Shown here: in pieces, positions 31,595 to 54,601 of the stretch
How the letters are laid out: each line of letters begins with the position of its first letter
Numbering within the stretch: position 1 is the first letter of the stretch
Origin: Verrucomicrobiales bacterium
Lineage (GTDB): Bacteria > Verrucomicrobiota > Verrucomicrobiia > Verrucomicrobiales > V1-33
Direction: 5' to 3'
Assembly: GCA_028293125.1 (NCBI GenBank)
Contig: JAQGPJ010000061.1
Span: forward strand, 62,001-126,000
Length of the DNA: 64,000 bases
Made by a program: the position numbers and the translations under genes
Notes under the pieces: model-generated
The model's input: the letters and a program-made list of their open reading frames with translations, nothing else
The model's database searches: none
What the model was told of the DNA's origin: nothing

Positions 31595-34500
31595 ATGATC
31601 CGCCCCCTTTTTGCCCGTGCGGCTGCCTCGCTCCTGCTCCTCACGGTCGCCGCCCCGGCCGGACAGGTGGTGTTCAGTGAGGTCATGTACGCCCCTCCCA
31701 CGGGGAAGCCGGAATTCCTGGAGGTCTGGAATGTGGCCATGACGCCGCAGGATATGGCCCTGTGGAAATTCACCTCCGGCATCAGCTACACCTTTCCGGA
31801 CTTCAATCCCGCCAGCACGGGTGCGCACATCCTGAAGCCCAACGAGCGCATCGTGGTCAGCTCGGCGGATGAGGCCGCCACCCGCGCCGCCTGGCCGTCC
31901 ATTCCCGCCACGGTGCGGGTTTTCGGCCCGTGGACCGGCAGTCTCAACAACGCGGGGGAGGCGGTCACCCTGGACGATAAAAACGGTGTGCATGCCTGCA
32001 CGCTGGAATACGGCGACAGCAATCCCTGGCCGCGCGCCGCGGACGGCACCGGGCACTCCCTGGTGCTGAAAAGCGGAGACCTCGCCATCGATGACTGGCG
32101 CGTCTGGCGGGCCAGCACGGAGAACGGGGGATCGCCCGGCCTGGAGGATCCGGGCCTGCCGCCGGTGACCCTGGCGCTGAGCGAGGTGCATTTCACAGCC
32201 AACAACTCCACGGACTGGATCGAGCTGCGGAACGCCTCCACTACCTCCGCCAGCGCCGACGGATTCTTCCTGGCGTCGATGCCCGACTTTTCCGACAAGG
32301 TGCCTCTCGGCGGCAGTATCGCCGCCGGGGGTTATTTCAGCCATGCCGCCACCTTCGCCGCCGACAGCGGTGGGGAGGTGACCATTTACCTGATCGACAA
32401 CGTCAACCGCGTGCGGGAAACCCTGCACGCCAAGCATAAAAATGGGCGTGTCTCCTTTCAGCGCTTTTCGGCGGACTCCGACGAGTGGTACCAGTCCCTG
32501 ACGGATTCCCGCGATGCGGCCAACAATCCCGCGCGGCAGAGCGGCGTGGTCATCAACGAGATCATGGCCGATCCTCCGGGCAACCAGCGGGACGGGGAAT
32601 TCATCGAGCTTTACAACCGCACCGCGGCTCCCATCGACCTCAGCGGCTGGAAGCTGGACGACGCTGTGGACTACGTTTTCCCGCCCGGCACCTCCATTCC
32701 CGCCGGCGGCTATGTGGTCATCGGGGCCAACGCCGACTGGCTGGCGGAGAACTACGGCGGCTTGGCGGCGCTCGGCAACTGGTCGGGATCCCTGTCCAAT
32801 GGCGGGGATCGGCTCCGGCTGGAGGACGCGGACGGCAATCTGGCGGACGGGGTGGACTACCGCGCGGGTGGCGAGTGGCCGGATTTGACCGGGGGCGACG
32901 GCAGCTCCCTGGAGCTGACGAACCCCGGCATGGACAATTCAAAAGGCGGCGCCTGGCGGGCCAGCGACGAAAGCGCCAAGGGCCAGTGGCAGAGCTTCAC
33001 CATCAACGGCGGCACCTACCGCCGGCAGGGGCACGGCGTCACGGACGATGAAATCCGCCTCTGGCTGGTGGGTGACGGCCATCTGGTGCTGCGGAATCTG
33101 GTGCTCCAGACCGTCGCCGGCGGCCCCAATCTGCTGGTGAACGGGGACGTGACCACCCTGCTGAACAACAACGTGGCGGGCTGGCAGAGCCGGGGAACCC
33201 ACTACGCCTGTTTCAGCGACGCTGAGGGCGTCCACATCATTGCCGACGGCCATGGGGACAACAAGGCGAACCACATGGAGAAAAGCGCCACCGGCATGGC
33301 GGCCAACACCGCCTACCGCCTGACCGGCGAGGTGCGTTGGGTTTACGGCAAGCCCCGGATCATCGCGCAGAGCTTCGACACCACCTGGGGCGGCATCACC
33401 CAGGCTTCGGTGCCGCAGAACCTGGGAACCCCCGGCAAGGTCAACAGCCGCTTCACCGCCGCCCCCGCCCCCGTTGTCACCGCCGGCCTGCACAGTCCCG
33501 CAGTGCCCAAAACCACGGACACAGTGACCATCACCGCCAACGTCAGCTCCGCCGCCCCGCTGGCCAGTGTGGTGCTGCGGCACCGGCTGGACAATGTCAA
33601 CGGCAACGCCGTGTGGGCCTCCCTGCCGATGAGTGATGACGGCGTCGAAGGCGACGCCGTGGCCGGCGACGGCATCTACAGCGTGCGGATCCCCACGGGC
33701 TCCGTGACCGGCTACAACAATAACGGAGCCATCGTGCAGTTTTACGTGCTGGCCACGGCGGACCATGGCGGCACCGCAGTTTTTCCGCGCGGCGGGGAGG
33801 CGGCTCCCGGCATGTGGGTGGTGAACAATACGGAGCCCGCCAAGGATCTGCGCCGCCTGCGGGTGGTGATCTCCGCCTACTGGGCCGCCGCGCTGAACTC
33901 CTCCACCGGCAACTCCCTTAAATTCAATTACAAGTTCCCGCGCCTGTCCAACCACTATTTCCCCTGCACCTTTATCAGCAATGACACCGAGGTTTATTAT
34001 GGAGCCACCGTGCGCAAAACCGGCAGCCCATGGACGCGCGGGGATGACAACTCGCTGGACCGGGCCCGCGTGGACCTGCCGGGCGACAAGCTGTTCCGCG
34101 GCAACAGCAAGCTCTACTGGGACAACGACAGCAACGGCAGCACCATGCTGCACAACCGCATCCACCGCTACTGGCTCTATCTTTTCGGCGTCAACGGGGT
34201 GCAGAACGAGGTCTGCCGCATCGCTAAAAACAACGGTGCCTACACGGTCCGCGAGACCAGCGAGGTCTTCGACAAGGACTTGCTGGACCGCCTCTGGGAG
34301 AACGGCAGCGACGGCTGGTTTTACGAGGTCGATGACAAGTTCTGGATCGGTGACGACGGCAGCAGCCGCCTGGACAGCACCGACGGCACCTGGGACTACA
34401 ATCCGGCCAACAGCCCCGGCGCGGAGAACCCGGTGACCTATCAGAACAGCTACATTCCCAAATCCCGCGAATCCGAATACGACTTCAGCCAGCTCACCGA

Positions 34501-36946
34501 ATGGTTCCGGCAGATCGAGACCCGCTCCACCACCATGACGCAGCGGCAGATGGAGAGCATGATCGACATCCGGCAGTTTGCCGCCTACGCCGCCGTCCGC
34601 GGCTACAGCGCGGACTGGGACAACTTCACCATGAGCCGTGGCAAGAACGGCTTCGTCTACAACCGCTCCACGGACCACAAATGGGTGCCCATGCACTGGG
34701 ACAGCGACCTGTCCTTCGATCCGGGACAGGCCAGTGCCCCCGCCATCGGCAGCCTGACCAATATCGGCACCTTCTACAGCCGACCCTTTGTGCGCCGCTA
34801 CCTGAACTACTACTACACCAAGATGCTGGGGGAATACGCCCCCAACGGCCCGCGTCTTAAAGCTTGGATCGCGGCGGAGGAGGCCGTGAGCAGCGGCTAC
34901 AACGTGCCCGGCACCTATGTCAGCTGGGCCACCGGCGCGCGGCCGGGGGTCATCCGCAACTTCATCGGCACCGCCACCCTGAACGCCCCCTTCGCCCTGA
35001 CCAACCCTCCGGCCACCGCCACCACGGACACGGTGGACGTCACCGGCACTGCCCCGGCGGCGGGTTATGAGATCATCTGCGTGGACCATCCGGAGGCGGT
35101 CTTCACCTGGAGTGGCACCACCACCGCCACCACCACGCTGTGGAAAGCCACCGGCATCCGTCTGGCGGAGGGGGTGAACACGCTGGTCTTCCGCCTGCTG
35201 GACGCCAGCGGCGCGCAGGTCGGCACGGACTTCACTCAGGTCATTACCAAAACAGGCAATTCCCTGCCGGTGATGCAGCTGACCACCGACCCCGCCTCCC
35301 TGAATGTGCCGGTGGGCCACGCCATCACCTTGGACGCCGGTGGCAGCACGGATCCGGAGAACGCCGCCCCTCTGACTCTGGCCTGGATGGTCTCCCCCGC
35401 CACCGGCTGGACCATCACCGCCAGCACCGCCAGCGCGCGGACTCTGGTCTTCAGCCGCTCTGGCGCCTACACCGTCACGGTGCAGGGCACGGATGCCGCA
35501 AACCAGAGCGCCAGCACTTCGCTGGACCTGACGGTTTACAGCGACACGGACTTCGACTCCTTCAGCGGCGACTACCTGACCGCCTACACCCTGCGGGATG
35601 TGAAGCTGCTGGACAACTATGCGCCGGACACCTGGGTGTCCCTGCATGAGACCGAAAACAATCTTGTCCTGCAGATCACCGACAGCGCCGCCCGGCCTCT
35701 GACCACCGCCAGTCCCGGATTCCCGCGTGTCACCCGTCCTGTGCCGGCGGCCACGGATTTCATGATCCAGACCGATCTCACCTTGGCCGGCCGCCAGTTT
35801 GGAGCTTTCATCACCGGGCTTTATCTGGAGACCACGGAGGCCGGTGTGCCGGCCGGTTATGTGTTCGGTCTTCAGGACGGCACCAGCATCGCCGTGCAGA
35901 AGGCCAGCGGCGAGGGCGGAGCCTATGCGGCTGTGGGCAGCACCCCCTGGCCGGGCAATGATTCCCCCGCCCTGCGCATCAGCCGGTCCGGCACCGCCCT
36001 GGCCTTTCAGCTGCGCGTGGATGGCCGGTGGACCACAGTGGGGTCTGTGACCCTGCCGGACGGTGCCACAGCCTCCGTCGGCGGCCTATTCTCCGCCACG
36101 CCCTTGGCCACGTCTGTGAAGACAGCCTTCGATTATCTGCTGATCGCCGATCCCGCGCACCAGAGCCGTCTCACCGAAGATCTGCGCATCACCGAAATCA
36201 TGTATAAACCCCCGGGCGGCGGTGTGGAGTATCTGGAACTCGGCAACATCGGCACTGCGCCTCTCGATCTCACAGGCGTGTATTTTGACGACGGCAAGCC
36301 CTTCGATCTCTTCACCTTCGGAGCTATCAGTCTTCCCCCCGGCGGTTTTGTGACCGTCACCCAGGACACGGCCGCCTTCCGTGCGATTTACGGCCAGAAT
36401 GCGGTGGTGGCCGGGCAATACAGCGGAGCGCTCAACAACGCCGGCGAGCGCATCGTGCTGAAGGATCCGCAGGGCAATGTCATCCAGGACTTCTCCTACG
36501 GCTCCAGTGCTCCCTGGCCCACCGCTCCTGACGGCAGCGGACGCTCGCTGGAGATTCTGTTCCCCCGCGGCACCTACGACGATCCCGCGAACTGGCGTCC
36601 CAGCGCGGAGATGGGCGGCACGCCCGGCAGCGCCGGGGCCGGCTATGACACCGACGGGGATGGCCAGAGCGATCGCACGGAAATTGCCTTCGGCACCGAT
36701 CCAACGAATCCGGGTTCCTATTTCCGGATCGATTCCGTGACCCTCAACGCCAGCGGCCAGCCGGTCATCTTCTGGCAGGGCTCCGCCAGTGTGAACTACA
36801 TCATCCAAGCCAGCTCCGATCTGAATTCCGGCAACTGGCAAACCTTGGGCACCGTTGCCGGCACCGTCCCCGTCACCAGCTTCACTGACACCACAGCCAC
36901 ACTCCCGGGACGCCGCTTCTACCGCATCGCGGGCACGGGTTTTTAA
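31595..36946 (+). CDS. Giant secreted LTD/CotH domain protein
   Basis: A 1783-residue exported protein with a signal peptide (FARAAASLLLLTVAAPAGQ). Lamin-tail-like beta domains begin at about residues 25 (VVFSEVMYAPP), 188 (LALSEVHFTANN) and 318 (VVINEIMADPPG), and again at 1526 (LRITEIMYKPPGG). A CotH-kinase-like domain spans about 790-1050 (ATVRKTGSPWTRGD, VPMHWDSDLSFDPG), followed by PKD/Ig-like folds. A TSP3-type calcium repeat (DTDGDGQSDRTEIAFG) and a C-terminal domain complete the chain. Similar LTD/CotH proteins are typical of Verrucomicrobiota and Planctomycetota. Their role is unproven. The start has no good SD site. Confidence 0.9.
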   Translation: MIRPLFARAAASLLLLTVAAPAGQVVFSEVMYAPPTGKPEFLEVWNVAMTPQDMALWKFTSGISYTFPDFNPASTGAHILKPNERIVVSSADEAATRAAWPSIPATVRVFGPWTGSLNNAGEAVTLDDKNGVHACTLEYGDSNPWPRAADGTGHSLVLKSGDLAIDDWRVWRASTENGGSPGLEDPGLPPVTLALSEVHFTANNSTDWIELRNASTTSASADGFFLASMPDFSDKVPLGGSIAAGGYFSHAATFAADSGGEVTIYLIDNVNRVRETLHAKHKNGRVSFQRFSADSDEWYQSLTDSRDAANNPARQSGVVINEIMADPPGNQRDGEFIELYNRTAAPIDLSGWKLDDAVDYVFPPGTSIPAGGYVVIGANADWLAENYGGLAALGNWSGSLSNGGDRLRLEDADGNLADGVDYRAGGEWPDLTGGDGSSLELTNPGMDNSKGGAWRASDESAKGQWQSFTINGGTYRRQGHGVTDDEIRLWLVGDGHLVLRNLVLQTVAGGPNLLVNGDVTTLLNNNVAGWQSRGTHYACFSDAEGVHIIADGHGDNKANHMEKSATGMAANTAYRLTGEVRWVYGKPRIIAQSFDTTWGGITQASVPQNLGTPGKVNSRFTAAPAPVVTAGLHSPAVPKTTDTVTITANVSSAAPLASVVLRHRLDNVNGNAVWASLPMSDDGVEGDAVAGDGIYSVRIPTGSVTGYNNNGAIVQFYVLATADHGGTAVFPRGGEAAPGMWVVNNTEPAKDLRRLRVVISAYWAAALNSSTGNSLKFNYKFPRLSNHYFPCTFISNDTEVYYGATVRKTGSPWTRGDDNSLDRARVDLPGDKLFRGNSKLYWDNDSNGSTMLHNRIHRYWLYLFGVNGVQNEVCRIAKNNGAYTVRETSEVFDKDLLDRLWENGSDGWFYEVDDKFWIGDDGSSRLDSTDGTWDYNPANSPGAENPVTYQNSYIPKSRESEYDFSQLTEWFRQIETRSTTMTQRQMESMIDIRQFAAYAAVRGYSADWDNFTMSRGKNGFVYNRSTDHKWVPMHWDSDLSFDPGQASAPAIGSLTNIGTFYSRPFVRRYLNYYYTKMLGEYAPNGPRLKAWIAAEEAVSSGYNVPGTYVSWATGARPGVIRNFIGTATLNAPFALTNPPATATTDTVDVTGTAPAAGYEIICVDHPEAVFTWSGTTTATTTLWKATGIRLAEGVNTLVFRLLDASGAQVGTDFTQVITKTGNSLPVMQLTTDPASLNVPVGHAITLDAGGSTDPENAAPLTLAWMVSPATGWTITASTASARTLVFSRSGAYTVTVQGTDAANQSASTSLDLTVYSDTDFDSFSGDYLTAYTLRDVKLLDNYAPDTWVSLHETENNLVLQITDSAARPLTTASPGFPRVTRPVPAATDFMIQTDLTLAGRQFGAFITGLYLETTEAGVPAGYVFGLQDGTSIAVQKASGEGGAYAAVGSTPWPGNDSPALRISRSGTALAFQLRVDGRWTTVGSVTLPDGATASVGGLFSATPLATSVKTAFDYLLIADPAHQSRLTEDLRITEIMYKPPGGGVEYLELGNIGTAPLDLTGVYFDDGKPFDLFTFGAISLPPGGFVTVTQDTAAFRAIYGQNAVVAGQYSGALNNAGERIVLKDPQGNVIQDFSYGSSAPWPTAPDGSGRSLEILFPRGTYDDPANWRPSAEMGGTPGSAGAGYDTDGDGQSDRTEIAFGTDPTNPGSYFRIDSVTLNASGQPVIFWQGSASVNYIIQASSDLNSGNWQTLGTVAGTVPVTSFTDTTATLPGRRFYRIAGTGF

Positions 36947-37381: not shown

Positions 37382-39097
37382 ATGAACTGGTTTATCAATC
37401 TGAAGACCCGCACCAAGCTCCTGCTGGGTTTTGGATGCATCAATCTCCTGCTGGCTGTCGTGGCCGCCGTGACCTTCCATGCCCTCTTGGATATCCAGAC
37501 CGACTATGATGTGACCACTGATCTCAGCCATCTGGAAAGCAACATTCAGACCCAGCGGGGCAGCCTGCTGATCCTGCTTTCGATGACTGATCCTGTCCAG
37601 CAAAATGCCAAGGTAACCGAAATAAAGGGCCGGACAGAAGCGAACACCCAGCTGATCGACACCCTCAAGTCTCGGACGGCATCACTCCCCGGACTTGATG
37701 CGCGTCTGGATGCATGGGTGCGCAAGCGCAACGAATACACCACCCTCCGCGATGCAAAAATGATTCCAATCGTCATGGCAGGCAAGCTTGAGGAGGCCCG
37801 TGTCTTGGCGGTCGGTGAGGAATCACGTCTTTTTGAGGAGATGAGGGCTCTTGGCCATCAGGCTCTCGACGCCGCAAAGGAGGAAGTGCATAGGGAGGTG
37901 CGACAAGCCATGACGCTGGTGACGGGTCTGGGAGCCGGTTCCATCGTGATCGGCCTGCTGCTGGCGGTGACGCTCAACCGCATCATTGCCCGGCCGCTGG
38001 TGGAGATTGCCGGTGCCGCCGGCGAGATTGCCCGGGGAAATCTTGATGTCGCCCTCAACCACACCTGGCGCAGCGACGAGGTGGGCATGCTCAGAAATGC
38101 CTTCGGCATCATGACCGCATCCCTGCAGACCATGGCCGCCAATGCGGAGCAAGTGGCGGGCGGGAATTTGACCGTGACCATCACGCCCCAGTCCGCGAAG
38201 GACAAGCTGGGGAACGCCCTGTCAACCATGGTGCAGCGGCTTTCCCTCCTCATCGGCCAAGTGCAGCGGTCCGGCATTCAGGTGACCACCTCCGGCACGG
38301 AGATAGCCGCCACTGCCCGCGAGCAGCAGGCCACTGCCAGTGAAATCTCCTCCACCACGACGGAGATCGGGGCTACGGCCAAGGAGATTTCGGCCACCTC
38401 GAAGGAGCTGGTGAAGGCCATGAGGTCCGTAACCGGCATCGCGGAGGAGACTGCCGCCCTGGCTGTCAACGGACAGTCCGGCCTTGTCCGCATGGAGGCC
38501 ACCATGACCCAGATCATGGACGCCTCGGGCTCCATCAATGCCCGCCTCGCGGTGCTCAGTGAGAAAGCCGGCAATATCAACAAGGTGGTGACCACTATCA
38601 CCAAGGTCGCGGACCAGACGAACCTGCTCTCTTTGAACGCCGCCATCGAGGCGGAGAAAGCCGGTGAGTACGGGCGCGGGTTCGCCGTGGTGGCCACGGA
38701 GATCCGCCGGCTGGCGGACCAGACGGCGGTGGCCACCTCCGACATCGAGCAGATCGTCAAGGAAATGCAGACCGCCGTCTCCGCCGGGGTGATGGGCATG
38801 GATAAATTCTCGGAGGAGGTGCGGCGCGGGGCGGAGGTGGTGGATCAGGTGGGTGCCCAGCTGACGGTGATCATCGACAAGGTGCAGACCCTGACCCCAA
38901 ATTTCGAAACCGTGAACGAGGGCATGCAGTCGCAGTCGCTCGGGGCTCAGCAGATCAGCGAGGCCCTGATCCAGCTCGGTGAGGCCGCCCAGCAGACGGT
39001 GGAGTCCCTGACCCAGTCCAACCAAGCGATCCGCCAGTTGAACGAGGTCACCGCGGCGCTCCAGAGCGGGGTCTCCAAATTTAAAATCGAAGGCTGA
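37382..39097 (+). CDS. Methyl-accepting chemotaxis protein (WspA-like)
   Basis: A 571-residue receptor. Membrane helices are at about 12-37 and 176-203 with a periplasmic four-helix-type domain between them. A HAMP domain follows, then a long helical signalling domain. The conserved hairpin tip is LNAAIEAEKAGEYGRGFAVV, followed by EIRRLADQTAVATSDIE. It is the first gene of a seven-gene operon and acts as the array receptor. Size and domain order match WspA. Confidence 0.93.
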   Translation: MNWFINLKTRTKLLLGFGCINLLLAVVAAVTFHALLDIQTDYDVTTDLSHLESNIQTQRGSLLILLSMTDPVQQNAKVTEIKGRTEANTQLIDTLKSRTASLPGLDARLDAWVRKRNEYTTLRDAKMIPIVMAGKLEEARVLAVGEESRLFEEMRALGHQALDAAKEEVHREVRQAMTLVTGLGAGSIVIGLLLAVTLNRIIARPLVEIAGAAGEIARGNLDVALNHTWRSDEVGMLRNAFGIMTASLQTMAANAEQVAGGNLTVTITPQSAKDKLGNALSTMVQRLSLLIGQVQRSGIQVTTSGTEIAATAREQQATASEISSTTTEIGATAKEISATSKELVKAMRSVTGIAEETAALAVNGQSGLVRMEATMTQIMDASGSINARLAVLSEKAGNINKVVTTITKVADQTNLLSLNAAIEAEKAGEYGRGFAVVATEIRRLADQTAVATSDIEQIVKEMQTAVSAGVMGMDKFSEEVRRGAEVVDQVGAQLTVIIDKVQTLTPNFETVNEGMQSQSLGAQQISEALIQLGEAAQQTVESLTQSNQAIRQLNEVTAALQSGVSKFKIEG

Positions 39098-39108
39098 GGC
39101 CGTCGGTC

Positions 39109-39582
39109 ATGCTGCTCCTCATCTTCCAGATCGGCGCGCACCGCTTCGCCTTGGACACCCGGCAGGTGGTCCGGGTGCTGCCCATGGTGGAGCACCGGCC
39201 CCTGCCGCAGGCGCCTCCGGGCGTGGCGGGCGTGTTCGACTATCGGGGCACACCCGTGCCGCTGATCGATCTGTCCGCCATCGCACTGGGCTCCCACGCG
39301 TCTGTCCGGATGAGCACGCGCATTATTCTGGTGCAGTATGAGGACGGTGCCGGAGCCCATCCGCTGGGGCTGATGGCGGAGAAAACCACGGAGACCCTGC
39401 GGCGCACGGAGGCCGATTTCACTGATTCCGGCCTCACCATGGAGCGCGCGCCCTGGCTGGGCCCCATCACGCATGATGACCAAGGCATGATTCAGCGGGT
39501 GGAGGTCCAAGCCCTGCTGCCGGACTCCGTCCGGGCGGTCCTGTTCCGCCAGCCTCAACCCTCCTTCGCCACCGCGCTGTAA
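39109..39582 (+). CDS. cheW: CheW-type coupling protein
   Basis: A 157-residue CheW domain protein (LLLIFQIGAHRFALDTRQVV, then VAGVFDYRGTPVPLIDLSAI with the conserved RG). It starts 11 bp after the receptor stop and the next gene begins on its last base, so it is part of the same translational unit. The position matches WspB. It would link the receptor to CheA. Confidence 0.93.
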   Translation: MLLLIFQIGAHRFALDTRQVVRVLPMVEHRPLPQAPPGVAGVFDYRGTPVPLIDLSAIALGSHASVRMSTRIILVQYEDGAGAHPLGLMAEKTTETLRRTEADFTDSGLTMERAPWLGPITHDDQGMIQRVEVQALLPDSVRAVLFRQPQPSFATAL

Positions 39583-40883
39583 TGGATCCGGACCCCATCG
39601 CGAAGGTAATCCGGCAGGCCATCGGCGTGGATGCCGAAACCATCGGACGCCTCAGCCTAGCAAACGCCGTGCGCGCCCGCATGAAGGCCTGCGGGATTTC
39701 TGATATTCACACCTACCACCGGCAGCTGCTGGAGAGCGGCGGCGAACTGACGCAGCTGATCGAACTGGTGGTGGTGCCGGAAACCTGGTTTTTCCGCACT
39801 CCAGAGGCCTTTGCGGCACTGGCTGGGATGGTGCACCGGGAATGGCTGCCCGCCCATGCGGCCGGGCAGCTGCGTGTTCTCAGCGTCCCCTGCTCCACCG
39901 GAGAGGAGCCCTACACTATCGCCATGGCGCTGCTGGACTCCGGGTTGCCCGCCGACCGGTTTCAAATCGACGCCATCGACATCAGCTGGCGGGCGCTGGA
40001 GCAGGCCCGCCGGGCGGTCTATGGGAAAAACTCCTTCCGCGGAGGCGACCTTGGATTCCGGGGAAGATACTTCTCCGAAGTGCCGGGCGGTTTTGAGCCC
40101 GGGGCCGCCGTGAAAGAGCGCGTGATGTTCCGCCACGGCAATCTGGTGGCCGGCGAGGGGCTGCCAGGGCTGGGGAACTATGACGCCATCTTCTGCCGGA
40201 ATGTGCTGATCTATTTCGACACCCCGACTCAGGAGCAGGTGGTGCGGAATCTGGCGCGGCGGCTGACTCCGGAGGGACTGCTGTTTGTGGGCCCCTCGGA
40301 AACCTTTGCGACCCGGAGCGCCGGATTTTCCCCGGTGGATTTTCCAGGCGCCTTCGCCTGCCGCCGCTCCCCTCAAGCGGCGGTCCCCCTGTCCCAGGGA
40401 ACGCCGCCCCGTTCCCTGACTCCCTCCTTCGTTGCTTCCGCCATCACTCCGCCAAACCGGGAGCCGGCAAAAAAGGCGGGTCCCAAAGCTCCGGCGGCAC
40501 GCAAACCGGCACTGGCGGAGAAAGCCCCGCGCCTGACACCGGCACCGGCACCGGCGGCTGCCCCGCCCGCGGGCCGGGAGCTGGAGACCGCCCACCGGTT
40601 GGCCAACAGTGGAAAACTCACGGAAGCCCTGGGCCTGACCGAGGCTTGGCTCCGGAAGCACCCCCCCGCAGCGGACGCTTACTATTTGCTGGGCCTGATC
40701 CGCGACACCATGGACCATCCGGAGGAGGCGGTCCGGCATTACCGCCGGGCGCTGTATCTGAAGCCCAATCATCAGGAAACGCTTCTGCATTTCGCCCTGC
40801 TGCTGGACCGGCAGGGCGATCCGGCGGGTGCCCGGCGTCTCCGGACCCGCGCCCGGCGCGGTGAGGAGGTGAACCGCCCATGA
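39582..40883 (+). CDS. cheR: CheR methyltransferase with C-terminal TPR repeats (WspC-like)
   Basis: A 433-residue protein. The methyltransferase part has VVPETWFFRTPEAFAAL, VLSVPCSTGEEPYTIAMAL and FCRNVLIYFDTP. After a Pro/Ala-rich linker (about residues 265-325) come TPR repeats (AADAYYLLGLIRDTMDHPEE and an adjacent unit). CheR plus TPR is the WspC layout. The TPR part may bind the receptor or partner proteins. The gene overlaps the CheW gene downstream by 4 bp. Confidence 0.93.
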   Translation: MDPDPIAKVIRQAIGVDAETIGRLSLANAVRARMKACGISDIHTYHRQLLESGGELTQLIELVVVPETWFFRTPEAFAALAGMVHREWLPAHAAGQLRVLSVPCSTGEEPYTIAMALLDSGLPADRFQIDAIDISWRALEQARRAVYGKNSFRGGDLGFRGRYFSEVPGGFEPGAAVKERVMFRHGNLVAGEGLPGLGNYDAIFCRNVLIYFDTPTQEQVVRNLARRLTPEGLLFVGPSETFATRSAGFSPVDFPGAFACRRSPQAAVPLSQGTPPRSLTPSFVASAITPPNREPAKKAGPKAPAARKPALAEKAPRLTPAPAPAAAPPAGRELETAHRLANSGKLTEALGLTEAWLRKHPPAADAYYLLGLIRDTMDHPEEAVRHYRRALYLKPNHQETLLHFALLLDRQGDPAGARRLRTRARRGEEVNRP

Positions 40884-41497
40884 GCACCGACCCGCCAGCG
40901 CCCGACAGCAGCAGCAACAGCGCCGCCGTCTCCGGCCAGGACGGAGCGCTGCGTCTGCTGGACCGCGAGCCCCCCGCAGGCTATATCCACGAGTGGACGG
41001 AGAGGATCGCCGGGGAAAGGAAAGCCGCTGAGTCCGGCACCCAATCCGCGCTCGTTTTCCGCATCGGCCCGGAATGGCTGGCACTGCCTCCGGGCATCTT
41101 TCAGGAAGTGGCCGAGCGGTGCCCGGCACACAGCCTGCCCCACCGCCAGGACGGGGTGGTCAAAGGCATCGTCAACATCCGCGGCGAGCTGGTTGTCTGT
41201 GTTTCCCTGGCCACCGTGCTGGGGCTGGCCAGCGAGCCCCCGGCCATCAGGGAGCCGGGCCGCAGGATGTATGGCTTGGTGCTGGTGGCAAACCGTGCCG
41301 GCAACCGCTTGGCATTCCCGGTGAATGAGGTGCATGGAGTGCTCCGCTATCAGCCCGGGGAACTGCGCGCCCTGCCCGCCACGCTGGCGGAGAGCAAAGT
41401 CACCTACACCTTGGGACTGCTGCCCTGGGGGGGCCGGACCGTGGGCTGTCTGGATGACGAGCTTCTTTTTTACACCCTCAACCGGAGTCTGGCGTGA
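40880..41497 (+). CDS. cheW: Second CheW-type coupling protein (WspD-like)
   Basis: A 205-residue protein with a CheW core (ALVFRIGPEWLALPPGIFQE, VKGIVNIRGELVVCVSLATV). It has an N-terminal extension of about 50 residues that is not part of the standard CheW domain. Its position between the CheR-TPR and CheA genes matches WspD. The start and stop overlap both neighbours by 4 bp. Confidence 0.92.
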   Translation: MSTDPPAPDSSSNSAAVSGQDGALRLLDREPPAGYIHEWTERIAGERKAAESGTQSALVFRIGPEWLALPPGIFQEVAERCPAHSLPHRQDGVVKGIVNIRGELVVCVSLATVLGLASEPPAIREPGRRMYGLVLVANRAGNRLAFPVNEVHGVLRYQPGELRALPATLAESKVTYTLGLLPWGGRTVGCLDDELLFYTLNRSLA

Positions 41498-43908
41498 GCG
41501 GCTTTGACAGCGGCGATCTGAGCGATTTCTCCCTGACGGATCTCTTCCGCATGGAGGTGGAGGCGCGAACGGCCGCCATGACGGAGTCCCTGCTGGTCCT
41601 GGAGCAGGATGGCGATCCGGGCCCCGCCTTGGAGGAGCTGATGCGTGGCGCCCATTCCCTCAAGGGCGCCGCCGGCATGGTGGACCACAAAGCCGTGTCC
41701 GCAATCGCACACCATATGGAGGACTGCTTCGTCGCGGTGCAGAATGGACGGATCACCCTCGGGCGGGACCACATGGACCTGCTGCTGGGCGGGATGGACC
41801 TCATCTCCCGCGCCGCCCAGGGCCCGGAGGATGACGCCGCTTTCCTTCAGCCGGAGGTGGAGGCCTTTCTTCAAGCCCTCGCCGCCTCCATTGCCGAAAA
41901 GCCCGCCGCCGCCCACGCACCGCCCGCGGCCACTGAAGCCCCTGTGCCCGCTCCGGATCCCGGACCCGACCGGGGGGCGGATTCTGACTCCGTTTCAACA
42001 GCAGCATCATCCGTGGAAACAGTCACCGCCGGCACGGCTTCATTCTCGGCGCCTGCAACGGCGGCGGCATCAGACCCCGGACCTGAAATCCAGTCCCCTC
42101 CACCGCCGGGGCCGGAGAAGGAAACTCCCGCCACCTCCGCCGCCAAAAACACAGAGGCCGCCAGCCGTTCGCTGAAGGTTTCGGCGGAGAACCTGAACCG
42201 GTTGCTAGCCTTTGCCGGCGAATCCGTGGTGGCGTCGCGCTGGGTGAACACCTTTGCGGGCGGTCTTCAGCGTTTGAAGCAGCTGCATATCGGCATCAGC
42301 CAGTCCCTCACACAGCTGCACCAGCTGGTTTCCGACACCAAAATGAGTGTGCGGGTTCAGTCGCGGTTCGTGGAAATCCAGGACCGCGCCGGTGGATGCT
42401 TGGACCTGCTGGCGGAGCAACTGGACAGCCTGGAGCTTTTTGACCGGCGTTTCCACGGTCTCTCCAGCCGCCTCTACCAGGAGGTCATCGATTGCCGCAT
42501 GCGTCCCTTTTCCGAGGGCCTGCACGGCATCCCCCGCATGGTGCGCGACGCCGCCCGCTCGCTCGGCAAGGAGGTGCGGCTGGAAATCCTGGGCGGCACC
42601 ACCCCGGTGGACCGCGATGTGCTGGAGCGGACCGAGGCTCCCTTGGGGCACCTGCTGCGCAATGCGGTGGACCACGCCATCGAGATGCCGGAGGACCGGA
42701 TCCTGGCAGGAAAACCCCCGGAGGGCAAAGTGCGTGTGGAGGCCCGCCACAGCGCCGGTATGCTGCTCATCGAGGTCACGGACGACGGGCGGGGCATCGA
42801 TCCGGAGCTGATCCGCCAGGCGGTGGTCCGGAAGAACCTGACCACCCGCGAAGTGGCCGCCGGGATGTCCGCGGACGAACTGCTGGAGTTCCTTTTCCTG
42901 CCGGGCTTCAGCATGAAGGACACCGTCACCCGGCTCTCCGGGCGCGGGGTCGGGCTGGATGTGGTGCAGGCCATGATCCGCGAGGTGGGCGGCGGGGTGC
43001 GTATTTTCTCCACGCCCGGCAAGGGCACGCAGTTCCAACTGCAGCTGCCGATCACTCTCTCCGTGCTGCGGACGCTGCTGGTGGAGATCGGCGGTGAGCC
43101 CTACGCCTTCCCGCTGGCCCGCATCACGGCGGTGGTCAAGGTGCCGCGCGGGCGGATCGAGTCCATCGAGGGACGCGAGCATTTCCCCTACGGGGACCAG
43201 CAGGTGGGGCTCGTTACCGCGCATCAGGTGCTGGGCGTGGAGCAGCCGCCGTCCTCCGGTGAGGAGGTGCCCGTGATCGTGCTGGGCTCCAAATCCAACC
43301 GCTTCGGCGTGGTGCTGGACAAGTTGCTGGGGGAGCGTGAGCTGGTGGTGCTGCCACTGGATCCCCGGCTGGGTAAAATCAAGGACATCAGCGCCGCCGC
43401 CCTCATGCCGGACCAGTCCCCGGTGCTGATCGTGGATGTGGATGACATGGCCCGCTCCATCGAACTCCTGGTCTCCGGCGGCCGGCTTACCCAAGTGCAG
43501 CGCTCCGGCTCAGCGGACACCGACCGGCGGCGCAAGCGCGTGCTGGTGGTGGACGACTCCCTGACAGTCCGCGAGCTGGTGCGCAAGTCCATCAGCAACC
43601 GCGGCTACGAGGTGGAGACCGCCGTGGACGGCATGGATGGCTGGAACGCGGTGCGCACCGGGAATTACGATCTGGTGGTCACGGATGTGGACATGCCCCG
43701 GCTGGATGGGATAGAATTGGTCACTCTTATTAAAAAAGACAGCCGCCTGCATGCCCTGCCCGTCATGATTGTTTCCTACAAGGACCGTGAGGAGGACCGC
43801 CGGCGCGGTCTGGAGGCGGGGGCGGATTATTACCTGACCAAAAGCAGCTTCCACGATGAGACCCTGTTCCAAGCGCTGCATGACCTGATCGGAGAGGCCG
43901 AAACATGA
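41494..43908 (+). CDS. cheA: CheA-receiver hybrid histidine kinase (WspE-like)
   Basis: An 804-residue protein starting at GTG that overlaps the preceding CheW gene. The HPt domain has His54 in LMRGAHSLKGAAGM. A Pro/Ala-rich linker (about 130-220) precedes the dimerisation, ATPase (LRNAVDHAIEMPEDR, DDGRGIDPELI, GRGVGLDVV) and CheW-like domains. A C-terminal receiver has Asp731 in VTDVDMPRLDG. CheA-REC fusion with this order is typical of WspE. The receiver may phosphorylate or gate the downstream CheB and single receiver proteins. Confidence 0.93.
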   Translation: MSGFDSGDLSDFSLTDLFRMEVEARTAAMTESLLVLEQDGDPGPALEELMRGAHSLKGAAGMVDHKAVSAIAHHMEDCFVAVQNGRITLGRDHMDLLLGGMDLISRAAQGPEDDAAFLQPEVEAFLQALAASIAEKPAAAHAPPAATEAPVPAPDPGPDRGADSDSVSTAASSVETVTAGTASFSAPATAAASDPGPEIQSPPPPGPEKETPATSAAKNTEAASRSLKVSAENLNRLLAFAGESVVASRWVNTFAGGLQRLKQLHIGISQSLTQLHQLVSDTKMSVRVQSRFVEIQDRAGGCLDLLAEQLDSLELFDRRFHGLSSRLYQEVIDCRMRPFSEGLHGIPRMVRDAARSLGKEVRLEILGGTTPVDRDVLERTEAPLGHLLRNAVDHAIEMPEDRILAGKPPEGKVRVEARHSAGMLLIEVTDDGRGIDPELIRQAVVRKNLTTREVAAGMSADELLEFLFLPGFSMKDTVTRLSGRGVGLDVVQAMIREVGGGVRIFSTPGKGTQFQLQLPITLSVLRTLLVEIGGEPYAFPLARITAVVKVPRGRIESIEGREHFPYGDQQVGLVTAHQVLGVEQPPSSGEEVPVIVLGSKSNRFGVVLDKLLGERELVVLPLDPRLGKIKDISAAALMPDQSPVLIVDVDDMARSIELLVSGGRLTQVQRSGSADTDRRRKRVLVVDDSLTVRELVRKSISNRGYEVETAVDGMDGWNAVRTGNYDLVVTDVDMPRLDGIELVTLIKKDSRLHALPVMIVSYKDREEDRRRGLEAGADYYLTKSSFHDETLFQALHDLIGEAET

Positions 43909-44948
43909 GAGTGGCCATCGTCAATGACATGCCTATGGCCGTGGAGGCCGTATCGCGCCTGCTCAGGGCCGCGGAGCATCAGGTGGCCTGGACGGCCTGC
44001 AATGGCCATGAGGCCATTGAGCGCTGCGCCGGAGACCGCCCGGACCTGATTCTGATGGATCTTTTCATGCCCGTCCTCGACGGGGTGGACGCTACCCGGA
44101 GGATCATGCAGGACACTCCGTGCCCGATCCTGATCGTGACCGCCAGCGTGGACCACCACACCTCAAAGGTTTTCGAGGCTCTGGGTGCCGGCGCGCTGGA
44201 TGTGGTCATCACCCCGGTGCTGGGCGCGGACGGTCTGGGCTCGGGCGGCACGGCGCTGCTGGGGAAAATCCGGATGCTGAGCCGGCTGATCACCGGCCGG
44301 GCTCCCGGTCCGGCGTCGTCGGAGAACCCCCCGGACACCACGGCGGAGCCCCTTTCCAAGGCGCGGAACCAACTGGTCGCCATCGGCTGCTCCGCTGGCG
44401 GGCCGGCGGCGCTGGCCACGGTGCTGGGCAGCCTACCCCCGGATTTCGCCGCCGCCATCGTGATCATCCAGCACGTGGACGAGCAGTTCGCCCCTCTGCT
44501 GGCCAAGTGGTTGAACGAACAGTCCCCGCTGCCGGTGCGCATCGCCGACGATGGCGACCAGCCGGAGCCCGGCACCGTGCTGCTGGCCGGCCGGAATGAC
44601 CATCTCATCTTTTCCGGCGCCCGCCGGTTCAGCTACACCCCGGAGCCCGAATCCTGCTCCTACCGGCCCTCCGTGGATGTCTTCTTTGAAAGTGTGGTGC
44701 GCCATTGGAAAGGCCGGACCGCGGGTGTGCTGCTCACGGGCATGGGCCGCGACGGAGCCAAGGGACTGAAGGCGCTCCGCGACCACGGTGTCCCGACCAT
44801 CGCCCAGGACCAGACCAGCTGCACGGTCTACGGCATGCCAAAGGCCGCGGCCATGATTGGGGCGGCTGTTGAAATTTTGCCTTTGGATCAGATCGGGCCG
44901 CGGTTGGTCCGGCTCTTCCCATCCGTCCAAATGCCTGCTGCCCCATGA
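43905..44948 (+). CDS. cheB: CheB methylesterase with N-terminal receiver (WspF-like)
   Basis: A 347-residue protein. The receiver has Asp52 in ILMDLFMPVLDG. The catalytic part has Ser163 in GCSAGGPAALA, His190 in IIQHVDE and Asp283 in GMGRDGA. It removes receptor methyl groups once phosphorylated. The start overlaps the CheA stop and the stop overlaps the next gene by 4 bp. Its place in the operon matches WspF. Confidence 0.94.
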   Translation: MRVAIVNDMPMAVEAVSRLLRAAEHQVAWTACNGHEAIERCAGDRPDLILMDLFMPVLDGVDATRRIMQDTPCPILIVTASVDHHTSKVFEALGAGALDVVITPVLGADGLGSGGTALLGKIRMLSRLITGRAPGPASSENPPDTTAEPLSKARNQLVAIGCSAGGPAALATVLGSLPPDFAAAIVIIQHVDEQFAPLLAKWLNEQSPLPVRIADDGDQPEPGTVLLAGRNDHLIFSGARRFSYTPEPESCSYRPSVDVFFESVVRHWKGRTAGVLLTGMGRDGAKGLKALRDHGVPTIAQDQTSCTVYGMPKAAAMIGAAVEILPLDQIGPRLVRLFPSVQMPAAP

Positions 44949-45373
44949 ATTCCGATGTGACCACACCTTCAGAACCTTCAGCACCGCAACCCGGTGCCCG
45001 GCCCATCACCGTGCTGCTGGTGGACGATCAGGTGTTTATCGGGGAGGTGGTGCGCCGCATGCTCCTTGGCGAGCCCGATATTTCCTATCATTTCTGCGCG
45101 GATGGTGCGCAGGCGGTCCGCCGGGCGCAGGAGCTGCGCCCGGATGTGATCCTTCAGGACTTGGTGATGCCCGGCGTGGACGGCATCGATCTCGTGCGGC
45201 AGTACCGCTCCCATGAGTTGACCGCATCCAGCGCGGTCATCCTCCTCTCCTCCACCGAGGACGCCGCCACCCGCGCCCGCGCCGACGAGGCCGGCATCAG
45301 CGGATTCATGGTTAAACCCCCACCCAAAGCGGCGCTGGTGGCCCGGATCCGGGAAGTGACCGCCAGACCCTAA
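44945..45373 (+). CDS. Single-domain receiver, WspR-like but without GGDEF output
   Basis: A 142-residue receiver. Its start (ITVLLVDDQVFIGEVVRRML) and acceptor region (VILQDLVMPGVDGIDL, Asp72) resemble the receiver half of WspR, the diguanylate cyclase that ends Wsp operons. A lysine in GFMVKPP supplies the usual late position. After the stop no GGDEF coding text follows in any frame. The product can therefore be only an adaptor or phosphate sink, or it feeds a cyclase encoded elsewhere. It overlaps the CheB gene. Confidence 0.9.
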   Translation: MNSDVTTPSEPSAPQPGARPITVLLVDDQVFIGEVVRRMLLGEPDISYHFCADGAQAVRRAQELRPDVILQDLVMPGVDGIDLVRQYRSHELTASSAVILLSSTEDAATRARADEAGISGFMVKPPPKAALVARIREVTARP

Positions 45374-45481: not shown

Positions 45482-45733
45482 ATGAGTGACCTGCTCTCCC
45501 AATTGCCGGCTGTGCTTGTCCAGTTCCTCCGTGCAAACGGAGGCCGGACTATCCGGTTCGATCCCTCGGTGATGCCGCAGATGCAGATGGATGCCGTCGA
45601 GTTCCGCACTCCGGATGAATTGAAACTCTCCAGCTTTGAGGTGGACACTGGAGAGTATTATGAGAACCACGGGGAGACCGGCGAGGACCCTGACCTCCAA
45701 TATCTGATCGAAGGCATTGGAGCATTTCCATAA
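45482..45733 (+). CDS. Small hypothetical protein truncated by the IS element
   Basis: An 83-residue reading starting MSDLLSQLPAVLVQFL and continuing with MPQMQMDAVEFRTPDE. The stop codon lies inside the left end of the IS630-like element (the last residues GAFP come from its terminal repeat), so the natural C-terminus has been lost. It follows the Wsp-like operon by 108 bp. The family is not recognised. Confidence 0.55.
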   Translation: MSDLLSQLPAVLVQFLRANGGRTIRFDPSVMPQMQMDAVEFRTPDELKLSSFEVDTGEYYENHGETGEDPDLQYLIEGIGAFP

Positions 45734-46728
45734 TTTTTGTGGTCTTGATCCGGAATCGGGTTAAATTTGTCCAATGAAGACTTTGAAGACCCTTTCCCTT
45801 GACCTGCGCGAGCGTATTGTGGCCTGCTGTGACGCCGGGGTGGAGACCCAGGCGCGGATCGCCGCCCGCTTCATGGTGTCTTTGGGCATGGTCAAAAAAC
45901 TCCTCCTTCAGCGCCGGCGCACGGGTTCGGTGGAGAACCGGCGTTTTCTTTGCGGCCGCAAGCCCGTCCTTTTGGAGAGCCAGCGTCAGGCCATGGCGGA
46001 GCTTCTGGCGAAGGAGCCGGATCTGACGCTGGCCGCGCTCAAGGAGCGCCTGGGGCTGGAATGCACCCTGGCCACCGTCCACAACGCCCTGGGGGACATT
46101 GGATTGAAATATAAAAAAAGACGCTGCGCGCCAGTGAGCAGGACCGGGAGGACGTCGCCCGGGCACGGACTGAGTGGGCGGAGCGGCAGCCGGATCTGAA
46201 TCCGGAAAAGCTGGTGTTCATCGATGAGTCCGCCGCCAAAACCAACATGGTCCGGCTGTATGGCTGGGGGCCGCGCGGCGGGCGCCTGCATGCCCATGCC
46301 CCGGCGGGCCACTGGAACACCACCACCATGATCCCTCTCCATCCGCCTGGACGGCACCACCGCGTGCATGACCATCAAGGGCGCGGCGGACACGGAGGTC
46401 TTCCGGACTTATGTCCAGGAGCTCCTGCTCCCCACGCTGCGCCCCGGCGATGTGGTGGTCATGGACAACCTGCGCGCCCATAAAAGCGCGCCCGCCATCG
46501 CCCTGATCCAAGGTGCGGGCGCGGAGGTGAGGTTCCTGCCGCCTTATTCCCCCGACCTCAATCCCATCGAAAAGATGTGGAGCAAGGTGAAAACCTCCCT
46601 GCGCAGGACTGCGGCCCGGACGCATGAGAAGCTGCTGGAGGCCATCTCGGCGGCGCTGGACGCGGTGAGTTCGAAGGATGCCAGAGGATGGTTCGGCTCG
46701 TGCGGCTACAATATTAATTGAAATGCTC
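45720..46728 (+). mobile_element. IS630-family insertion sequence, degenerate copy
   Basis: The left end begins gagcatttcc at 45720 and the right end is gaaatgctc at 46720-46728, an imperfect terminal inverted repeat (about 14 of 18 bases pair). The inside encodes a transposase of the IS630/DDE type. TA follows the right end but the left flank is TG, so the expected TA duplication is not seen. Total length is about 1009 bp. Confidence 0.8.
45774..46721 (+). pseudogene. IS630-family transposase with two frame changes
   Basis: Frame 1 (45774 to about 46120) encodes the helix-turn-helix half (LSLDLRERIVACCDAGVETQ). At seven consecutive A bases (46113-46119) the reading continues in the -1 frame as TLRASEQDREDVARA and then VFIDESAAKTNM, the first catalytic Asp. 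A-run slippage is known in some IS elements, so this shift may be programmed. A second shift near 46336-46345 (after HWNTTTMI) returns to a third frame with IRLDGTTACMTIKGAADTEV, VVMDNLRAHKS and NPIEKMWSK, holding the other Asp and the Glu. The second shift is likely disabling. Confidence 0.8.
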
Positions 46729-46754
46729 TAATTCCACTTTGTTAAATTTTGAAG

Positions 46755-49618: not shown

Positions 49619-49724
49619 CCGTGCCCAAGCCTCATCGATGAAACCTTTCTGTAACCAGCCTGGGTGAATCCTGTAGTAATCCATGAAGGCGGCGGGTGCC
49701 ATCCGCATGCGCCGGAGTAAAAAT

Positions 49725-52700
49725 ATGAAACTCACCAAGGACCTTAACCGATTCCTTCGTTGCCGCCGGCCCGCATTCGTTCTCCGGTCGCTGTCCTTTC
49801 TCCCGATGCTCAGCATCAGCGCCGTCGCCCGGGATTCGGTCGGCGGCGGGTGGCTTCACGGAGGAGCCGACGCGGAGTATTTCGGGAATTCGGACCTCAG
49901 CGGCGTTCCAGCCTTCACCAGGAGGGACGTGCGCGTGGATTTCGATTGGGGAACGCAACGAGGTCCGGGCGGCTCCCGGTCTCCGGGGTTTGCGGATATC
50001 GGCGCGGACCGTTTCTCAGTGCGCTGGACCGGGCAAATCATGGCGCGCAACACGGAGGTCTATCAATTCGAGGTTCGTTGTGATGATGGCGCCCGTCTAT
50101 TCATCAGGCCCGCGGGCGCCGAAACATGGACGACGCTGATCGATCACTGGAATGAGCCCGGCACTTATGTGGCGCCGATCGCGCTAACGTCCGGGGAAAC
50201 GTTTGATCTCCGATTGGAATACCGCGAAATAACCGGCGCGGCGGCCTGCCGACTGGGCTGGTCGAGCCCGGGGACCCCTCCCGAAGTGATCGATAGCGCC
50301 ACGCTTGCCGGCATCAATGTCTACACCTACGCGGCCCAGCTCTGGGCGAATGCTTTGGACGGAGGCCGGGATGAATGGCGGGATCCTGGCTTTTCAGACA
50401 ACAGCTCCCTCTGGCCCGCGCGCGACAGCAATGGATGGCCGATGGGCGACGGTGTCAACGTGGTGTGGGAAGGAGCGGACCCGGCCGACCGCGCGGGAAC
50501 CTATTTTCTGAAATTCACCGGAAGCGCGGAAGTGACGACAAGATCCAACAACGGCTATTTCCGCAGGGGAGACACCGCTCACGGACTGATTCTTCCGTCC
50601 GGCGCAGGCTACGACGCCGCCACCAACACCACCCGCGCGCTCATGGATGCGCCACCCTCCGATATCCTCTATCTGAGCTTTGCGAATACGCGGCGACACC
50701 CCGCCGACACAACATCGACGGGAGTCTCGGACGTTATACTCATGCGTCCCATCGCGCCCGGAAGCGCAACGCCGCACGCGCCGGGAACTTTTTTCACCCG
50801 CGCCCTCAGTGAGGCATTCAAGCGCTACTCAACCCTGCGCTGGATTTTGAATCAGGACACAGACCGGGACTGGTCCGACCGGGTTCCCCCCTCGTATTCA
50901 TCGCACGTGAACATCGGTGAGATGAGACATTGGGAGCGAATGGTTATGCTCAGCAATGAGACCGGAAAGGATCTGTATCTGTGCCTCCCTGTGCGGGCCA
51001 CGAATGACTATGTCACCAAAGTCGCCCAGCTCCTCCGCTACGGGTCTGATGGGATCAACCCTTACACCGACGAGCAGGCCCACCCCGTATATCCGCCCCT
51101 GAACCCGAACCTCCGGATAATTGTGGAGCGGGAAAATGAAGTCTGGAACTGGAGTTTCGCCAATTCCGAAAACAATCTCCACGACGTGCGGATGGCGGAG
51201 GCGGCAAACACCGCCGACTGGCAGGCGGTCAACTATGATGGCGCTTACACCGCGAACGTCGATGGGGCATGGCTTCGTTGGCATGCTTTGCGCACGGTGC
51301 GTGTCTCGCAACTCTTCCGCGGGGTTTTTGGGGATTCCCAAATGGGGAGCCGGGTGCGGGTGGTTTTCGAATATCAATACGACAATGCGAATGGAACGGC
51401 GGACGGCGCGCTGCCTTTTTTGGACAACTTCTTCAACAATGCCGATGGCCTGCCCCACGTTTCCGATCCGCATCCGTTGAATTACCATCTCTGGGGAGCG
51501 GGCGGGGCTGTGTATTATGGGGCGCGCAACCCGAATGGCTCCCAGACTCAATTCAGCTTCAACAATCCCGGTTTCGAAAGTCCGGCCCTCGCCGCGGGCA
51601 CCGCTTTGCAAAATCCTGATGGCGCGCAATGGACCTTCACCGGCACCGCCGGAATTTATCGCAAAGGAGAGCCGGCGCCCGCGCTGACGAATGGCACGCT
51701 GGGGGCGTCCGGCAATACGCTGACTGAACCCGGGGCCATCGGCTGCGGTTTCATGACCGGTGCCAGCCGCCTTGGTGTTTATGAACTTGGACGCTGGGCG
51801 GTGAGCGGCAACCGCGGCCTTCACGAATTGAGGATCATCCGGGCGGGTGATCAGGCAACGGTCGCCTTTGCCAGGGTCGATCTCGATGGGGCCGAAAGTG
51901 GGCAGTACTGCTATACACCGCTGCAACAGCCCGCCATCCTCGAAGCGAATACCCGATACTATCTGATGAGCAGTGAAAACGGGAACGGCGCCGGTGACAC
52001 CTACCACGATAATGCGGCGGTCGACGCCGTGGGCGGTATTTCCGTGCAGGCGCGCGTGCAGGCCACCTATGGCGAACCTTCGTGGAACAGTGCCACTTGG
52101 AATTTCGTGGAAGTGGAGAGCGGCAGCCGCACATTCGGCCCGGTGAATTTTCGCTGCATGGTGGATCCTGTCCCGGGCCTCGGGTTTCCGCCGGCGGCGC
52201 CCGCCGGATCACAGGCCGCATGGATCGCCGGCACAGGCGAAATAAGCCAGCGGATCGCCTTTCCCCGCGCCGGAGTCTACGCGCTGCGGATGCAGGCGTC
52301 CGTCAAGGAGGGCGCTCTGAACTCCGTGCGCTTTTATTTCGACAACACGGTCATTACTCCGGATGAGCGCAACCACACCGCCGCCCGCGCCGGACAATGG
52401 TGGCCAGGCGATAGTTACAACCACGATCCCCGGCGTTTTGACAATTACTCGACCTTTGTATTCCACGTTCCCGGTCCTGCCACCCACACGCTTCGTGTCG
52501 CAGGGCTCGGTCTTGATCGCTACCAGCCCCTTGACGCGCCGCCGGACCCGAATCGTTACATCTATTTCGACCAGCTCGAAATCGTCAGTGCCGATGCCTT
52601 CTTCGAAGGCGGGATTCCCGATGCGGGTGAAGCCAATGGCCAAGTGGCATCAGGCAGCTATGCGGCCGGTGTTTTCTCCCAGGCCCGGTACGCGCAGGCT

Positions 52701-54601
52701 TATGGCCTGCGGGCCGTTGCCTACGAAGGCGGTTGGTCGGTCGGCAGCGATTTTGACAGCACGGTATTTCAAACCTGGTGCAAGTATCAGGATCAGCGAT
52801 CAAGGATCGCCCAGCGTGATTCGCTGGATATATTTGCCCGCAGCGGCAGCCGGATGTATATCTTTGGCACCTATGAAACCTGGCCGGTCGGAGACACAAT
52901 CAATGCTGCGGCGTATCCGCTGACCCGGGCGGTCGACGATTGGAACGCCGCGCTCCCACCGGAGCCCTCGAACGGAATCCACATTCCAGCCATACTCACC
53001 CCGGCGGACCACCGCTGGGCGCACACCGTCTCGGGAGACAGCATCCACCAAACCGGAGGGTGGTTTTTCTGGAGTGCGCTCGCACCGGCAACGGCTGAAT
53101 ACGTGATCACCGTTGCCACGCAGGCCGGGGGCACCGCGCTCCTTGAGGTGGACGGCACACCGGTTGGCACGGCCTTTCCCAGCGGGGGGACGCGGACATT
53201 CAGCGTGCGGCTGACCCGTGGCCTCCACGCACTGAAACTGCGCTCCGCGGGCGGCTCGTTCGCGGTGACAAATCTTGCCGTCACTCAAACGGGCGCACCG
53301 GCCGCACCGGCCCTGACATCCGCCGTCGAGGGCGATTCACGGGTGACACTGACGTGGTCCGGCGCGGGAGGAGAAACTGTGCACCGCATTCGTTACGGCA
53401 CCGCAGCCGGAAGGTATGATCAGGAAATCCCCGTGGGCACAGCCAACGCGTGGACGGTCACCGGACTGGTGAATGGGACCACCTACTACTTCGCAATTGT
53501 GGCAGGCGACGCGCAGGCCCTGAGCCTGCCGTCCAACGAGCGCGGAGCCGTGCCCATCGGGCCGGGCGGGATCACGCGCCTCGCCAATTGGGAGTTCACC
53601 GGTCTCTCCGGCGCGGCGGGCGTGGACGTGAGCGCCGCGCCCCGCAGTGCGAGCGGGAATGCGATTACAGGCCTGCTGAGCCGCGGACCGGGGCTGAGCG
53701 TGGGCTATTTCCTTGGCATCCCCAATACGTTCGCCAGTGGACCCGCGGAGTCCCAGGACGAATATTACGGTCAAACCCTCGGAGAGGCGCAGGCACGCGG
53801 ACAGTATTACACCTTCACCATCACGGCCGCCCCCGGAAAGACTCTCACCCTGACACAACTCCAGTTTCGTCCGTATTTTCAAAGCCTTGATGAAGCCGCC
53901 GCGCGCGTCAGCTACTCCACGGACAATACAAATTTTATCACCGCGCCCGCACCCACCGGCACGCTTGTGGCGGGTCCGGGTCAGGGCGCACTGCTTACGG
54001 TCGACCTTTCCAGCATCGCGGCGTTGCAATCGGTAACAGCCCCAATCACTTTTCGCCTCTATCTTTTTGGCGTCTCCCGCTACGTCACGACGGGTTTGGG
54101 TGGGCTTGGCGACGACCTCACCCTTTTCGGAAGCTACGGAAAACCGCCGACTTCTTTTGATGCGTGGCGCGGGATGCACGGTCTCCCGCTGGACGGTTCC
54201 GGGGAGCTGGGGAACCCGTCGGCGACGGGGTCACGAACCTCGTGAAGTTCGCGCTTAACCTTGCTCCCGCCGCGGGGGATCTGACCCGGTCCCGCGCCCG
54301 GACCCTGGCCAACCCGGAAGGAACCACGGTGGGGGAACTCACCGGCCTTCCCTTCGCGCGGCGTGGCACCGACGGACATCTGCACTTTGTATTTCTGCGA
54401 CGGAAAGCCACGGGCATGCCTGGGGTGAGCTATCGGGTGGAGTTCTCCGATCGGTTGACGGGCGGCTGGGCGGTCAACCCGGTGGCCGCCACCGCCATTC
54501 TTGAAGTGGATGCGACGTGGGAGCGCGTGATTATACAGGACATTGTCGCCGGCCCGCGGCCATCAAGCCGCTTCGTTCGGCTTCGCATCGAGGCGGAATG
54601 A
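49725..54601 (+). pseudogene. Very large secreted PA14/glycosidase-like/FN3 protein with a late frameshift
   Basis: The frame runs from ATG 49725 (GGAG eight bases upstream) to a premature TGA near 54243. It starts with a signal-like segment (RSLSFLPMLSISAVA). A PA14 domain follows (about 60-190, VYQFEVRCDDGARLFIR), then a region with NLRIIVERENEVWNW near residue 467, resembling the acid/base NE motif of clan GH-A glycosidases. A fibronectin III-type domain lies at about 1190-1280. From about 54218 the +1-type continuation (VGDGVTNLVKFALNLAP) to 54601 completes a typical C-terminus (VSYRVEFSDRL). One missing base near 54215-54220 explains the break. Confidence 0.78.

Follow-up and report, generated by a model that had tools for sequence, protein, structure and literature searches.

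How does a Wsp operon signal when its last gene encodes a receiver with no cyclase attached? Wsp is the textbook example of a pathway that turns surface sensing into c-di-GMP. In the 64,000-nt stretch of Verrucomicrobiales DNA analysed here (the window), a sequence-only reading had described genes matching WspA to WspF in order, linked by overlaps or short gaps, and ending in what resembled the receiver half of WspR without its GGDEF domain. It had left two options: that the output cyclase is lost, or that the receiver signals through a separate effector.

A complete Wsp operon ending in a single receiver

The operon is complete and translationally coupled, and occupies positions 37382-45373 of the window on the forward strand. 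The Pfam domains of all six upstream genes agree with the proposed order (MCP, CheW, CheR-TPR, CheW, CheA-REC, CheB), and a REC gene follows as the seventh. The first gene (37382-39097) encodes a 571-aa WspA-type chemoreceptor with a 4HB sensor, a HAMP domain and an MCP signalling domain (PF12729, PF00672, PF00015), and with two transmembrane helices predicted from hydropathy peaks at about residues 13-31 and 178-197; it is 69-70% identical to its Verrucomicrobium orthologues. Next come a WspB-type CheW (157 aa; 39109-39582; Pfam CheW; 73-74% identical in Verrucomicrobium), a WspC-type CheR methyltransferase with a C-terminal TPR (433 aa; 39582-40883; Pfam CheR and TPR) and a WspD-type CheW with an N-terminal extension (205 aa; 40880-41497; Pfam CheW at residues 57-197), the latter two also with counterparts in Verrucomicrobium operons. 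The WspE-type hybrid CheA (804 aa; 41494-43908; 66-67% identical in Verrucomicrobium) has Pfam Hpt, dimerisation, HATPase, CheW and REC domains, and the WspF-type CheB (347 aa; 43905-44948) combines REC and methylesterase domains, by Pfam and by a match over the cut-off of NCBIfam NF009206. The claimed linkage is likewise borne out: an 11-nt gap separates wspA from wspB, and the remaining junctions overlap by 1, 4, 4, 4 and 4 nt, the last being the ATGA shared by wspF and the receiver gene. Given a CheR with TPR and no FliM in the organism, the cluster belongs to the ACF class, that is, CheR-TPR chemosensory clusters in organisms that lack a flagellar switch.

The seventh gene (44945-45373, forward strand) encodes 142 aa with one Pfam match, Response_reg at residues 23-136 (75.9 bits), and has neither a stalk nor an output domain. 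A PDB sequence search returned WspR entries 3i5a and 3bre as the best matches, at 116 and 108 bits, with the next match at 62 bits. Consistent with this, a fold search with the predicted model (mean pLDDT 86) placed WspR chains at the top, at 49-52% identity, and the protein aligns over the whole domain with the REC-GGDEF WspR receivers of Azoarcus, Cupriavidus, Novosphingobium and Mesorhizobium. The contrary possibility, a receiver unrelated to WspR, did not materialise; by sequence matches and predicted fold, the last gene encodes a true WspR receiver. All phosphorylation residues of a WspR-type receiver are kept (acidic pair D27 and D28, phosphoacceptor D72, S102 and K124), and the GGDEF diguanylate cyclase domain of WspR is absent. 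With a receiver only, a full phospho-site and no output domain, the protein is a single-domain response regulator of the CheY/DivK-like kind. The operon therefore resembles the Pseudomonas Wsp pathway (wspABCDEF-wspR) in gene order, in the domain make-up of WspA to WspF and in its WspR-type receiver, and aligns throughout with the REC-GGDEF operons of Azoarcus, Mesorhizobium, Cupriavidus and Novosphingobium, but differs from the Pseudomonas system in having no stalk, no GGDEF domain and no c-di-GMP genes detected in its genome.

The receiver of the Wsp-type CheB shows a peculiarity of its own: in all 30 operons examined, including WspF of the window (43905-44948), the expected conserved active-site Lys is replaced by Thr, or in two cases by Ile.

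Conservation of the lone receiver and outputs of its relatives

An IS630-like element lies close downstream (45713-46735, forward strand), with imperfect terminal inverted repeats at 45713-45740 and 46708-46735 and two transposase ORFs carrying HTH and DDE_3 domains; it forms the downstream boundary of the operon and is not part of it. Its proximity might suggest that the receiver is a strain-specific truncation, or a sequencing error, perhaps brought about by the insertion. However, the stop codon lies 340 bp before the IS, no GGDEF match follows, and the same C-terminal end is found in Verrucomicrobium operons that have no IS. The same seven genes, with a receiver of 141-142 aa, are present in Verrucomicrobium sp. 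BvORR106, Verrucomicrobium sp. BvORR034 (G030) and a V. spinosum-like genome (G051; 8,220,857 bp), all from another family than the window organism. Between the window and Verrucomicrobium the receivers are 59-63% identical and the operon proteins 55-74% identical, depending on the gene. In each of the four genomes the lone receiver takes the very place of wspR, the output gene, and within this orthologous clade no operon ends in a GGDEF protein of which the window gene could be a one-strain truncation. Truncation or IS damage in this strain is thus refuted as an explanation.

If the output were simply lost, the operon might instead be decaying. Compatible with such a dead end are the IS element 340 bp downstream and the scarcity of the operon in the window organism's own genus and family, where a single sampled genome has it. 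However, the seven genes are intact in four genomes from two families, the catalytic residues are kept, and among the Verrucomicrobium operons dN/dS is 0.05-0.22 across the genes. The receiver, at 0.09-0.12, is close to the others and is under purifying selection. Decay is, on this evidence, quite unlikely.

We surveyed WspR-type receivers in 388 sampled Verrucomicrobiota genomes with a cut-off of >90 bits, setting aside four weak matches of <71 bits. Such receivers were found in 30 genomes, where the outputs were REC-SpoIIE (PP2C-type phosphatase) in 22, REC-histidine kinase in six (five of them with extra receivers) and receiver only in two; REC-GGDEF was found in none. Where the output is fused, the A-F cassette lies upstream, in whole or in large part, in most of the regions retrieved. 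The output is thus replaceable in the Wsp lineage of Verrucomicrobiota, and a REC-SpoIIE protein is also carried by Granulicella rosea (Acidobacteriota). These Verrucomicrobiota and Granulicella operons have the A-F cassette and the WspR-type receiver in common with the window, but their receivers carry a stalk and a phosphatase or kinase, whereas the window receiver carries neither. GGDEF proteins are encoded elsewhere in 17 of the 30 Wsp-bearing genomes and in none of the other 13, so the choice of output is not simply set by the absence of c-di-GMP signalling.

Some of the SpoIIE loci of other Wsp operons have an RsbW-like ATPase as neighbour. At L145, L149, L158 and L160 a look-alike small gene comes next, at 40-160 bp, and the L145 copy is an RsbW-like HATPase_c_2 protein by Pfam, which suggests that Wsp controls partner switching at these REC-SpoIIE loci. 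In the regions read, some WspR-type REC-SpoIIE genes (L145, L149, L158, L160) stand apart from a complete A-F cassette; at L145, the CheB and CheA genes are some 10 kb upstream. Tandem WspR-type receivers occur in one operon (G408; L150:2165-4231), where a REC-SpoIIE gene is followed by a REC with about 130 further residues that have only a weak PAS-like match.

In a tree of WspE and WspF, the four REC-only operons form one clade (100/100). SpoIIE operons are split, at 100/99, from a half that holds the GGDEF, kinase and REC-only operons, and the window operon thus falls with four proteobacterial operons ending in REC-GGDEF. All other Verrucomicrobiota operons in this half carry kinases. This arrangement is compatible with an ancestral receiver-histidine kinase fusion that split, its kinase half now being encoded at another locus and partnering the receiver directly. 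However, the tree fixes no branching order inside the GGDEF, kinase and REC-only half, so the lost output domain may be GGDEF or kinase, and a GGDEF ancestor fits equally well. In addition, the G309 kinase half matches proteins of the window genome (G000), G030 and G051 at only 40-45% identity, as compared with 43-44% in Wsp-free genomes and 55-64% in true orthologues, and no stand-alone copy of the Wsp kinase output stands out in these three genomes. With no match above background, a preserved split-off kinase was rejected as a candidate, and we consider a split output unlikely.

Absence of c-di-GMP genes and loss of the output face

WspR is elsewhere a diguanylate cyclase, and the output could have shifted to another gene, with the lone receiver recruiting a separate cyclase in trans. 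The window genome (6.48 Mb, 99.1% complete) gave zero matches to GGDEF, EAL and PilZ, and G030 and G051 gave zero to GGDEF; positive controls worked in each case. There is therefore no cyclase in these genomes for the receiver to recruit, and the test for a cyclase partner that the sequence-only reading had proposed is moot for the window organism. A separate cyclase as output is refuted for the window genome, unless the enzyme belongs to an unrecognised family or its gene lies in the roughly 1% that the assembly lacks, and we regard this explanation as scarcely credible. FliM was likewise absent from the window genome, G030 and G051, which excludes the flagellar motor as the output. Of the two options in the earlier reading, a separate effector is the better one. 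Local loss of an output cyclase does not fit the conservation of the REC-only clade, and the wording sits poorly with a genome that has no GGDEF, EAL or PilZ gene and a phylum sample with no GGDEF fusion.

The active WspR dimer is formed by paired receivers and protruding stalks (PMC2270323). Stalk-bearing receivers, whatever their output, have an invariant alpha4-beta5-alpha5 signature of K110, F114, D120, Y121 and E130 (window numbering), nearly always joined by L125 and D127, and the stalk comes after it. None of the four lone receivers keeps the signature residue at any of these positions, and all four end just after alpha5; the window chain stops at residue 142, where the coiled-coil stalk of WspR would follow. 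Among residues invariant in 33 stalk-bearing receivers, five of 11 are lost in alpha4-beta5-alpha5 as against none of 15 elsewhere (Fisher p 0.007, a value that describes one evolutionary change and not four independent events, the four lone receivers being one clade). Loss of this face and of the stalk, with the phospho-site kept, is consistent with a receiver that has ceased to act through dimerisation of a fused enzyme.

The same pattern of an intact phospho-site and an altered output face would also follow if the lone receiver were a phosphate sink, which drains phosphoryl groups from WspE with the help of the WspE receiver, the true output being another regulator that is phosphorylated by WspE or reached by cross-talk. 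Other chemosensory systems are known to have single-domain phosphate sinks, and WspE and WspF carry further receivers. However, no second candidate output is found in or beside the operon, and the gene sits exactly where wspR does in all four genomes. We regard a sink as the chief rival to an output in trans, possible but doubtful.

Proposed output in trans and the search for a target

We favour, with a probability of roughly 60%, a CheY/DivK-like single-domain regulator that is phosphorylated by WspE and acts in trans, independently of c-di-GMP, on an unlinked target. Arrays of WspA with WspB and WspD would set the kinase activity of WspE, with methylation feedback from WspC and WspF. WspE, the presumed phosphodonor, would phosphorylate D72, and the phosphorylated receiver would then bind an unlinked protein as a soluble regulator like CheY, DivK or FlmD, with no alpha4-beta5-alpha5 dimer and no pairing of stalks; it would thus probably act as a monomer. 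The genome shows neither c-di-GMP enzymes nor FliM, which makes a c-di-GMP enzyme or a flagellar switch very unlikely as the target; histidine kinases and regulators of transcription or partner switching are the most likely class. DivK, for example, binds kinases. The single-domain regulator FlmD, from a chemosensory pathway of Comamonas testosteroni, binds SoxR and thereby controls biofilm independently of c-di-GMP; it provides the precedent for the output through protein binding that we propose here, although FlmD is PilH-like (Tfp class) whereas the window receiver is WspR-derived (PMC8880074). With slightly less confidence, we also lean towards a broader reading, in which surface or envelope sensing by Wsp has been rewired fully off c-di-GMP, with a free-standing, probably monomeric WspR receiver and an unlinked effector, in a phylum where the outputs (phosphatase, kinase or none) are interchangeable.

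Single-domain and output-swapped regulators in CheR-TPR clusters are known already. A 2012 survey lists 20 single-domain regulators in ACF clusters, most of them in species without flagella, besides regulators with a fused kinase, phosphatase, GGDEF or other domain; in its main text the single receivers are connected neither with WspR descent nor with c-di-GMP-free genomes (PMC3447774). As far as we have searched the literature, the new elements are the WspR descent of the lone receiver, its conservation as a clade in genomes where no GGDEF genes are detectable, the lack of any GGDEF output with this cassette in the sampled phylum and the loss of the output face in concert. That the Wsp cassette occurs, with phosphatase, kinase or receiver-only outputs, in bacteria where no c-di-GMP genes were detected shows that sensing array and second messenger can be separated; these outputs also form a natural series for asking how a receiver alters its surface on exchange or removal of the output domain. 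Since cultured Verrucomicrobium strains exist, the output is directly testable.

No target is apparent beside the operon. The earlier statement that no GGDEF domain follows before the IS is correct, but it had missed an 83-aa ORF between the two (45482-45733, forward strand), whose last residues lie inside the IS end. This ORF has no Pfam or NCBIfam match and no homologue among 57 related genomes; it was rejected as the effector on the latter ground and is probably not part of the Wsp system. Nor do the flanks of the operon share a conserved neighbour between the window and Verrucomicrobium. The downstream genes differ (the IS and a Ser/Thr kinase in the window, TetR and thioredoxin-like genes in G051, others in BvORR034 and BvORR106), and an AraC-like gene upstream in G051 and BvORR034 is absent in the window, the TetR, thioredoxin-like and AraC-like names being a reading of the sequences made without a domain scan. 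Free SpoIIE phosphatases are present in the lone-receiver genomes; none is linked to the operon or otherwise singled out, and they too were set aside.

Two further features of the window were observed. The Wsp operon and IS region are flanked by two very large, apparently secreted proteins of 1783 and 1520 aa (31595-36946 and 49683-54245). A second, receptor-free module at 4206-10823 (forward strand), nearly all of it translationally coupled, comprises a CHASE3-GAF hybrid histidine kinase with three receivers, a CheR, a stand-alone CheB methylesterase and a REC-HisKA-HATPase-REC protein.
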